A stretch of 64,000 bases of DNA, taken from assembly GCF_900172325.1 (NCBI RefSeq), contig NZ_FWFR01000001.1:1752335-1816334 (forward strand). The letters are read 5' to 3'. The notes under the pieces were generated by a model. The model searched no databases. It saw nothing but the letters and a program-made list of their open reading frames with translations, and was not told where the DNA came from. Of this stretch, positions 3,251 to 37,447 are shown piece after piece (position 1 is the stretch's first letter; each line of letters opens with the position of its first letter). Source of the stretch: Oceanibacterium hippocampi (GTDB lineage Bacteria > Pseudomonadota > Alphaproteobacteria > Sneathiellales > Sneathiellaceae). The translations under genes were made by a program, and so were the position numbers.

Positions 3251-3303
3251 CCGCACGCCGTGCTGCGCAAGAGTGTCAGGATACTTGACAAATCGCGCAT
3301 TTT

Positions 3304-3415
3304 CGGGAATTTCCTCGTTGAATCAAGAGATTGGTGGGATTCGCGGAGGCATTCCGGCCGGATGATTACCGGAAATTCTGACAACACTCCGGCGTCTGAT
3401 CTATCGGGAATTCTG
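3304..3415 (+). promoter_or_regulatory. Candidate upstream activator sites for the sigma-54 promoter (repeated CGGRAATTYY motif)
   Basis: Three same-strand copies of a ten-base motif are visible: CGGGAATTTC at 3304, CGGAAATTCT at 3370 and CGGGAATTCT at 3405. An inverted partial copy (ATTCCGG) sits at 3351-3357. They lie about 40-145 bases upstream of the -24/-12 element at 3448, the range where sigma-54 enhancer-binding proteins bind. Function is inferred from spacing and repetition only. Confidence 0.45.
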
Positions 3416-3447
3416 TAAGCGATTGAAATTATTCAGAAAATGAAAAA

Positions 3448-3463
3448 TGGCACGCGGTTTGCG
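3448..3463 (+). promoter_or_regulatory. Sigma-54 (RpoN) -24/-12 promoter of the PEP-CTERM gene
   Basis: TGGCACGCGGTTTGCG matches the RpoN consensus TGGCAC-N5-TTGCW at every position except the last. The invariant GG (3449-3450) and GC (3461-3462) are separated by exactly ten bases. Transcription would start near 3474 and give a leader of about 74 bases before the PEP-CTERM ATG at 3548. Confidence 0.7.
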
Positions 3464-3547
3464 TGTGTGACTACCGAAATTAGCTTTATTGGTGTAAACC
3501 GGCCGAATGAACGTGCCGGAACCCAGTGAGTGACAGGAGAATAAATA

Positions 3548-4165
3548 ATGTTTCGTCTCTCGTTCCTTTCGCTTTCCGCCGCCGTCGTGATGGTTGCCTC
3601 GGCCGCGGGATTCAGCGCTGCCGAGGCATCGCCGGTGCTGTTCTGCAAGGACGGCCCGGGCATCGATCTGGCGGCGACCGGGTGCATTTCCGGCACCTCC
3701 CGGCATTACCCGAACGGCGGCGACGGCATCTACAGCAATGCCGGCGGCGGCGATGACGAGGCTGCGGTCGAGGCGGCGATCCTCGCGGCGACCGGCAGCG
3801 CGGTCGATCTCAGCCTCTATGGCAAGAGCGACTCGAATGCGGCCCTGTTCTCGTTCACGCCGCTTGGCGGCGGTTTGCTGACCGGGTCACAGTCGGGCGG
3901 CTGGTCGGTGCTCGACGGGACGCTGATCGCCTACATCACGATCAAGGCGGCGAATTCCTTCGCGCTGTACGAGATCGACCCGATGTCCGCGACCGGCTCC
4001 TACACGACCGCCGGCATCCTGAACAACGGCGGCCAGCAGCCGTCGGTCTCGCATATCAGCTTCTGGCTTGCCAGCGGCGGCGATACGCAGATCCCGGAGC
4101 CCGCGGCCCTGCTGATCTTCGGCGCGGCGCTGGCCGGTCTCGGCCTGGCGCGTCGCAAGGCCTGA
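3548..4165 (+). CDS. PEP-CTERM sorting-domain surface/exported protein
   Basis: This 205-residue protein has an N-terminal signal peptide (hydrophobic to about residue 25, A-x-A-type cleavage region). Its C-terminus is a PEP-CTERM signal: I-P-E-P at about 182-185, a hydrophobic helix, and a final R-R-K-A. In other Gram-negative bacteria such signals are processed by exosortase (EpsH/XrtA), and the proteins are tied to exopolysaccharide and floc or biofilm matrix. The middle region is Gly/Ser/Asn-rich and has no domain I recognise. The start is supported by AGGAG at 3536-3540. The gene is alone, with its own sigma-54-type promoter and terminator; no exosortase is in the window. Confidence 0.88.
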   Translation: MFRLSFLSLSAAVVMVASAAGFSAAEASPVLFCKDGPGIDLAATGCISGTSRHYPNGGDGIYSNAGGGDDEAAVEAAILAATGSAVDLSLYGKSDSNAALFSFTPLGGGLLTGSQSGGWSVLDGTLIAYITIKAANSFALYEIDPMSATGSYTTAGILNNGGQQPSVSHISFWLASGGDTQIPEPAALLIFGAALAGLGLARRKA

Positions 4166-27599: not shown

Positions 27600-28286
27600 A
27601 TGGGACATAAAGTCAATCCGATCGGCCTTCGGGTCGGGATCAACCGGACCTGGGATTCGCGCTGGTACGCCAACAAGCGCGAGTTCTCCCGGCTGCTGCA
27701 CGAGGATCTCCAGATCCGCTCCTTCCTCGAGAAGAAGCTGCAGCAGGCCGGCGTCAGCCGCATCGTCATCGAGCGGCCGGCGAAGAAGGCCCGGATCACG
27801 ATCCATTCCGCCCGCCCGGGCGTGGTGATCGGCAAGAAGGGTGCGGATATCGAGCGGTTGCGCCAGGAGATCGGCAAGCTGACCGATTCGGAGACCCACC
27901 TGAACATCGTCGAGATCCGCAAGCCCGAGATCGACGCGCGCCTGGTGGCCGAGAATATCGCCCAGCAGCTCAGCCGTCGTGTCGCCTTCCGGCGCGCGAT
28001 GAAGCGGGCCGTGCAGTCGGCGATGCGGCTTGGCGCCCAGGGGATCCGGATCAATTGCGGCGGTCGTCTCGGCGGCGCCGAGATCGCCCGGACCGAATGG
28101 TATCGCGAGGGCCGGGTGCCGCTGCACACGCTGCGCGCCGATATCGACTACGGCACCGCGACGGCCAAGACCGCCTATGGCGCCTGCGGCGTCAAGGTGT
28201 GGATCTTCAAGGGCGAGATTTTGGCGCATGACCCGATGGCGCACGAGAATCGCCTGACGGATCAGCAGAGCGGCCAGCGGAACTGA
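27600..28286 (+). CDS. rpsC: 30S ribosomal protein S3
   Basis: This 228-residue protein lies at the mRNA entry site and takes part in the helicase activity of the ribosome. It starts [13 protein letters not shown] and contains the KH RNA-binding motif V-I-G-K-K-G at about residues 77-82. The conserved [13 protein letters not shown] run is in the second half. The length fits the usual range (about 210-235). rplP follows in 20 bases. Confidence 0.98.
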
Positions 28287-36424: not shown

Positions 36425-37447
36425 ATGGCTGTGATTCAAAAGAACTGGACCGAGCTGATAAAGCCGAACAAGCTGGTTGTCGAAGCGGGTGACGATACCG
36501 CCCGGCAGGCGACGATCGTCGCCGAGCCGCTCGAGGCGGGGTTCGGCCTGACGCTCGGCAACGCGCTGCGGCGCGTGCTGCTGTCGAGCCTGCAGGGCGC
36601 GGCGGTCACGTCGATTCAGATCGACGGTGTGCTGCATGAATTCTCGTCCGTTCCGGGCGCCCGTGAAGACGTCACCGACATCGTCTTGAACATCAAGTCG
36701 ATGTCCGTTCGTCTCCATGCCGAGGGCCCGAAGCGGATGACGCTGAAGGCGAAGGGGCCGTGCGAAGTGACGGCCGGCATGATCACGACCGGTGCGGATA
36801 TCGAGATCCTGAACCCGGAACTCGTGCTCATGACGCTCGACGACGGCGCCGAGATCCACATGGAAATGACCGTCCAGAGCGGCAAGGGCTATGTTCCGGC
36901 CTCGGCCAACCAGCCGGAAGACGCGCCGATCGGGATGATCCCGGTGGACGCGCTCTACAGCCCGGTTCGCAAGGTCGCCTACAAGGTCGAGAATTCCCGT
37001 TCCGGCCAGGTGCTCGATTACGACAAGCTCACCATGGCGATCGAGACCGACGGCACGCTGACGCCGGATGACGCGGTCGCCTACGCGGCGCGGGTCCTGC
37101 AGGACCAGCTCCAGCTCTTCATCAATTTCGAGGAGCCGCGCGAGGAGAAGCTGACCGAATCGACCAGCGAGCCGGAGTTCAATCGCAATCTGCTCCGCAA
37201 GGTCGACGAGCTTGAGCTCTCGGTGCGGTCGGCGAATTGCCTGAAGAACGACAATATCGTCTATATCGGCGACCTGATTCAGAAGACGGAGGCGGAGATG
37301 CTCCGCACTCCGAACTTCGGTCGCAAGAGCCTCAACGAGATCAAGGAGGTTCTGACGCAGATGGGCCTGCATCTCGGGATGGAGGTTGCCAACTGGCCGC
37401 CGGAGAATATCGAGGATTTGGCCAAGCGACTCGAGGAACCGTACTGA
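36425..37447 (+). CDS. rpoA: DNA-directed RNA polymerase subunit alpha
   Basis: This 340-residue protein has an N-terminal dimerisation domain ([19 protein letters not shown] at about 38-56) and a C-terminal domain for UP elements and activators ([11 protein letters not shown] near 267, then [10 protein letters not shown]). The linker at about 240-255 is normal. It is flanked by rpsK and rplQ as in most bacteria. Confidence 0.99.

Follow-up and report, generated by a model that had tools for sequence, protein, structure and literature searches.

The window analysed here (the whole stretch of 64 kb, located on contig C16 of a genome of 4.83 Mb) contains a PEP-CTERM surface protein gene preceded by a perfect sigma-54 motif and by repeated upstream sequences. 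The question raised by this locus is which activator controls the gene, and through which DNA elements.

The PEP-CTERM gene and its upstream elements

The product of the gene at 3548-4165 matched PF07589 with 24.8 bits (cut-off 20.7) and TIGR02595 with 18.4 (cut-off 16), which places it among the PEP-CTERM proteins. Its assignment to the PepA flocculation family (NF033554) was rejected, given that the match of 29.9 bits was under the curated cut-off of 80 and disappeared once the C-terminal tail was removed. A search for plasmid relatives of the protein found none, and a comparison of the leader of the gene with Rfam gave no match to a structured RNA. The upstream sites in the window were scored with a matrix derived from nine PEP-CTERM genes elsewhere in the genome, the target gene being left out (the own-genome matrix), and one site is also given with a matrix from a genome of another family (G026). 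The features of the locus are as follows.

3274..3290, no strand assigned: candidate distal PrsR box TGTCAGGATACTTGACA, a near-perfect 17-bp palindrome, 20.5 bits (own-genome matrix)
3301..3317, no strand assigned: in-register first copy TTTCGGGAATTTCCTCG, core without arms, 5.5 bits, near background
3367..3383, no strand assigned: candidate proximal PrsR box TACCGGAAATTCTGACA, core identical to the second CGGRAATTYY copy, 13.6 bits
3402..3418, no strand assigned: degenerate PrsR box TATCGGGAATTCTGTAA, third CGGRAATTYY copy, 9.4 bits (own-genome matrix) or 7.3 bits (G026 matrix)
3416..3428, minus strand: IHF-like site TAAGCGATTGAAA, 8/9 positions, 32 bp before TGGC
3448..3462, plus strand: sigma-54 -24/-12 promoter TGGCACGCGGTTTGC, exact consensus match (single RpoN in the genome)
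3535..3539, plus strand: ribosome-binding site AGGAG, within CAGGAGAATAAATAATG at 3534-3550
3548..4165, plus strand: PEP-CTERM surface protein gene, 205 amino acid residues, with a signal peptide and the sorting tail IPEPAALLIFGAALAGLGLARRKA

A sigma-54 motif 85 bases 5' of the start codon had been claimed by a sequence-only reading of the window, and it was present at 3448-3462. TGGCACGCGGTTTGC has 0 mismatches to TGGCACGN4TTGC and is the sole exact match within the 64-kb window, and 85 bases separate its end from the ATG at 3548. The string alone was rejected as evidence, given that its genome-wide count was not above chance (95 matches with at most one mismatch, compared with 113 for the reversed control); the evidence is therefore carried by its position and by the neighbouring elements. 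With these included, the sigma-54 promoter before the PEP-CTERM gene is real. Nine other exact sigma-54 motifs were found in the genome, mostly without a correctly placed box, and two of the nine lie 5' of flagellin genes. The loci L011 and L012 (G000:C9:47259 and 48409, minus strand) combine exact sigma-54 motifs and flagellin-like genes with no PrsR box, and these promoters are presumably served by a different enhancer-binding protein.

The three claimed copies of CGGRAATTYY were found at 3304, 3370 and 3405, and one further exact copy was present in the window (36990-36999, minus strand). The pattern was rejected as the regulon motif, since only 1 occurrence was found among 19 other PEP-CTERM upstream regions. 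Motif sampling of the PEP-CTERM upstream regions yielded not CGGRAATTYY but a 17-bp palindrome with the consensus TGTCRGAAWWTYYGACA, of which CGGRAATTYY forms the core (positions 4-13), and the three copies lie in register with this palindrome at 3301-3317, 3367-3383 and 3402-3418. As a binding motif, the shorter string therefore captured the core of the palindrome but was too specific, being itself rare in the regulon. As a site, the copy at 3367-3383 held (13.6 bits), whereas that at 3402-3418, which shares 3 bp with the IHF-like site, was marginal (9.4 bits), and that at 3301-3317 was unsupported (5.5 bits) and is probably not a functional site. The inverted partial copy claimed near 3352 received a score from no matrix.

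The best copy, TGTCAGGATACTTGACA at 3274-3290, falls outside the interval that had been described. It is the top match in the 64-kb window and starts 174 bp before TGGC; it also scored 20.0 bits with a matrix from G026 only, whose boxes had first been located with the own-genome matrix, so that the training was independent of the target gene and not wholly of the genome. The proximal box at 3367-3383 starts 81 bp before TGGC, inside the -76 to -82 range of the other genes, and is weaker than the boxes at most of them, its left arm being TAC and not TGT. When the boxes of the target gene were examined for helical phasing, the spacings (27, 66 and 35 bp) followed no simple pattern. Elsewhere in the window, the second-best box-like sequence (TGTAGGTAATTTCGACG, at 414-430) is located ∼150 bp 5' of a quinone-oxidoreductase-like ORF at 582, where a near-consensus sigma-54 motif is absent.

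The IHF-like site and the spacing of the elements

In IHF-assisted sigma-54 promoters of the NtrC/NifA type, an IHF site lies between the enhancer sites and the -24/-12 motif. The target promoter has the same layout, with a regulator and a box that are PrsR-specific. When 23 promoters were aligned on TGGC, a conserved AAnnnnTTGA was observed between the box and the promoter. With YAANNNNTTGAWW used as the IHF consensus (WATCAANNNNTTR on the minus strand), 17 of the 23 promoters had a site at -29 to -32 that agreed with the minus-strand consensus YAANNNNTTGATW at 7 or more of its 9 positions. The mean best score was 7.48, compared with 5.65 ± 0.15 in shuffles (z = 11.8), and the reversed letters gave z = 2.3. 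At the target gene the IHF consensus lies between the boxes and the promoter, at 3416-3428, in this conserved register; ihfA and ihfB are expected in Alphaproteobacteria.

The distance from box to IHF-like site, start to start, was 49 bp at the target and 48.5 ± 0.8 bp (47-50) in 16 other promoters, a small spread that is partly built in because this subset was chosen by IHF score near the usual register. Measured from the promoter, the positions of the box and of the IHF-like site vary jointly (r = 0.94). Two PEP-CTERM promoters on a prsK-prsR-carrying plasmid of Vibrio alfacsensis have a box-to-IHF distance of 48 bp, at -79/-31 and -89/-41, so that in the second the pair as a whole lies about one helical turn farther from the promoter. 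The background rate of an IHF-like match in a four-position slot is 2%; two more box-plus-promoter sites in the same scan were without such a match at 48 bp. It is probable that PrsR promoters are three-part assemblies of a box, an IHF site rigidly placed ∼48.5 bp downstream and a sigma-54 promoter, in which PrsR and IHF would act as one unit, and in which an additional distal box, ∼93-134 bp upstream of the first, recurs at some genes, the target included.

The stretch at 3416-3428 could also be DNA that has an intrinsic bend or melts readily, or a site for HU or another nucleoid protein, and the PrsR/sigma-54 reading would be unaffected. The shortness of the consensus and the 6 of 23 promoters without a good match are compatible with this, but we consider it unlikely, as the signal is that of a strand-specific IHF consensus (z = 11.8, compared with 2.3 when reversed) and the rigid spacing is also seen in gammaproteobacteria. 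As for the literature, open-access sources, where absence is not proof, yielded no paper that deals with IHF at the promoters of PEP-CTERM genes; no mention of IHF was found in Haft et al. 2006 (PMC1569441) or in the Aquincola paper (PMC9850573), and the paper on sigma-54 in D. vulgaris refers to it in general background only. In Geobacter ihf mutants, the exosortase substrate GSU1943 was up about threefold (PMC7962754). This result ties IHF to such genes in the opposite direction, and IHF is accordingly read as not a simple activator everywhere.

Regulators and the distribution of the box

The lack of rpoN or of a PrsR homologue had been named beforehand as a result that would speak against PrsR control. 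Both are encoded: a PrsR equivalog is located at C7:26479-27804 (TIGR02915, 659 bits, cut-off 502.6), a PrsK equivalog (TIGR02916, 670 bits, cut-off 300) directly precedes it, and the one RpoN in the genome scored 436 bits. Around prsK-prsR, genes for PrsT, a PEP-CTERM protein, the XrtA amidotransferase, exosortase A and XrtA-type exopolysaccharide functions were found, and PrsR, PrsK, PrsT, EpsH/XrtA and RpoN were all over their curated cut-offs.

The genome gave 17 PEP-CTERM matches, 15 of them over the cut-off and 14 apparently true genes, and a sigma-54-like motif was present in front of 10 of these 14, the target gene included. Random scatter of the motif copies had likewise been proposed as a check; nine PEP-CTERM genes besides the target have the 17-bp box 76-79 bp 5' of their sigma-54 motif. 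The sequence-only reading of sigma-54 and PrsR control is thus well supported by the regulators and by this recurrence.

The genome was searched for the regulon with a degenerate pattern, and several individual loci are of note. Two closely similar tandem PEP-CTERM genes (L043/L042, G000:C16:2024000-2025700) are each preceded by a separate box, an IHF-like site and an exact sigma-54 promoter. At L074 (G000:C6:395361-395452, plus strand; TGGCAAGGAACTTGC), a PrsR box, a perfect IHF consensus and a sigma-54 motif precede a gene whose small secreted product lacks a PEP-CTERM tail; this gene is a candidate for a PrsR regulon member outside the PEP-CTERM group. At L081 (G000:C16:1404820-1404915, plus strand), a box, a perfect IHF consensus and a sigma-54-like motif lie ∼480 bp 5' of an ORF resembling ATP synthase subunit c, and no PEP-CTERM gene is evident there.

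In other genomes, the box was found together with PrsR. PrsR is encoded in G026, a genome from a different family of this class, and 10 of its 22 PEP-CTERM genes carry a box 79-82 bp before the sigma-54 motif, 6 of the 10 with a second box at -174 to -215. In a third family (G290), PrsR scored 667 bits, and the promoter of a homologue 44% identical to the target protein has TGTCGATTTTTTTTACA exactly 81 bp before TGGT...TTGC, as with the proximal box of the target. A genus of the same family as the target contains weak homologues with a VPLPA-like tail and enhancer-binding proteins, and neither a PrsR equivalog nor a box plus promoter at these homologues was found; it was therefore used as a negative control, in place of footprinting with close relatives. 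The closest homologues found (L110, L111 and L112, 59-68% identity) are in MAGs labelled bacterium, Acidobacteria and Terriglobia, and their relationship to the target suggests that the gene was transferred between phyla. At these homologues there was no box plus promoter, and no PrsR above the cut-off was found. The motif was thus absent where PrsR is absent, both in the same-family genus and at the acidobacterial-type homologues. Because box and promoter are missing at the 59-68% homologues and present at the PrsR-bearing 44% one, the promoter, on this comparison of sequences, follows the presence of PrsR and not the ancestry of the protein.

The observed elements, their spacing, their recurrence at PEP-CTERM genes, the regulators and the absence from PrsR-less homologues are best joined by a PrsR-controlled, IHF-assisted sigma-54 promoter that would drive the gene at 3548-4165, a reading to which we give a probability of about 0.9. 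It is highly improbable that the sigma-54 promoter is real but that a different enhancer-binding protein drives transcription. Several other such proteins are encoded in the genome (300-350 bits to the PrsR model), and D. vulgaris DVU0110 has a predicted motif in common with PrsR (PMC4641369). However, the box is common to PEP-CTERM genes across PrsR-bearing genomes, is lacking at the PEP-CTERM-like homologues in the same-family genus, which does have enhancer-binding proteins, and is mostly not in the correct place at the nine other exact sigma-54 motifs. Least credible of all is that the upstream repeats are AT-rich chance matches, with only the sigma-54 core mattering or a sigma-70 promoter in use: the literal CGGRAATTYY is not common to the regulon and the intergenic region is AT-rich relative to the genome, but 0 of 500 dinucleotide shuffles of this same region reached the best (3274) or second-best (3367) box score, box positions are conserved across families, and the box, IHF-like site and promoter (at most one mismatch) occur together at only two places in 123 kb of the genome, both 5' of PEP-CTERM genes.

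Proposed mechanism and comparison with known systems

Under PrsR control with the assistance of IHF, PrsK would phosphorylate PrsR, an NtrC-type enhancer-binding protein, and PrsR dimers are predicted to bind the proximal box (3367-3383) and the stronger distal box (3274-3290) and to oligomerise. Bending of the DNA by IHF at 3416-3428 would bring PrsR into contact with the RNA polymerase-sigma-54 at 3448-3462, and the waiting polymerase would be remodelled by PrsR through ATP hydrolysis, giving a transcript with a predicted start near 3474. The secreted PEP-CTERM product, with a putative function at the surface, may be a substrate of exosortase A and may be expressed together with the exopolysaccharide locus. 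According to the summary in PMC9012009, flocs were lost in prsK and prsR mutants of Zoogloea, and by analogy with other species a role of the protein in matrix or flocs is plausible.

By its sequence, the target promoter is of the kind described by Haft et al. 2006 (PMC1569441), who reported a 17-nt motif, a spacer of roughly 63 nt, a sigma-54 motif, occasional repetition and a link to PrsR. The two have in common the 17-nt motif 1, the ∼63-nt spacer, the sigma-54 motif, the PEP-CTERM gene and PrsK/PrsR/PrsT, the box being equated with motif 1 by length, the described 3' end, spacing and the PrsR link. The spacer is 64 nt from the target box at 3367-3383 (62.8 ± 10.6 nt in Haft et al.), and the sigma-54 motif is 85 nt from the start codon (mean 71 nt). 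Motif 1 repeats in R. rubrum, as it does at the target with the stronger repeat at 3274-3290. The 3' end was described as TTTACA, whereas that of the proximal target copy is CTGACA; of the two target copies the distal one is the stronger, and the target spacer adds an IHF-like element that is unmentioned in Haft et al. The target promoter thus extends that description modestly, by an IHF-like element and a distal box.

The DVUA0057 regulon of Desulfovibrio vulgaris (PMC3333781, PMC4641369) likewise has a PrsR-type regulator, PEP-CTERM targets and sigma-54 promoters, and in a DAP-chip assay each of the five PEP-CTERM targets predicted for this regulator was bound by it (PMC3333781). The DP4 plasmid of D. 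vulgaris has the same box 5' of PEP-CTERM genes, but the only promoter with a clear sigma-54 motif has its box 94 bp away, and an IHF-like site was not found 48 bp from the box. A further PrsR box on this plasmid (TGTCGGAGAACCTTACA, L120) lies ∼97 bp before a PEP-CTERM start at 28248, too near the start codon for the usual layout and with no good sigma-54 motif in between. Transcription of the pepA gene of Aquincola tertiaricarbonis depends on RpoN1; its -24/-12 promoter (TGGCAC...CTGCTT) has been mapped, and an enhancer-like sequence lies upstream of it (PMC9850573). This gene resembles the target in having an RpoN-type PEP-CTERM promoter, but the target protein is under the PepA cut-off (29.9 vs 80 bits).

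The PrsR/sigma-54 prediction made in 2006 is confirmed in this genome, and an exact, testable predicted binding site is provided together with a regulon rule. With the IHF-like element at its fixed spacing, control of exosortase substrates by IHF can be tested directly. Moreover, the promoter goes with PrsR and not with protein ancestry: it is missing at the 59-68% homologues in acidobacterial-type MAGs and present at the 44% homologue of a PrsR-bearing alphaproteobacterium.
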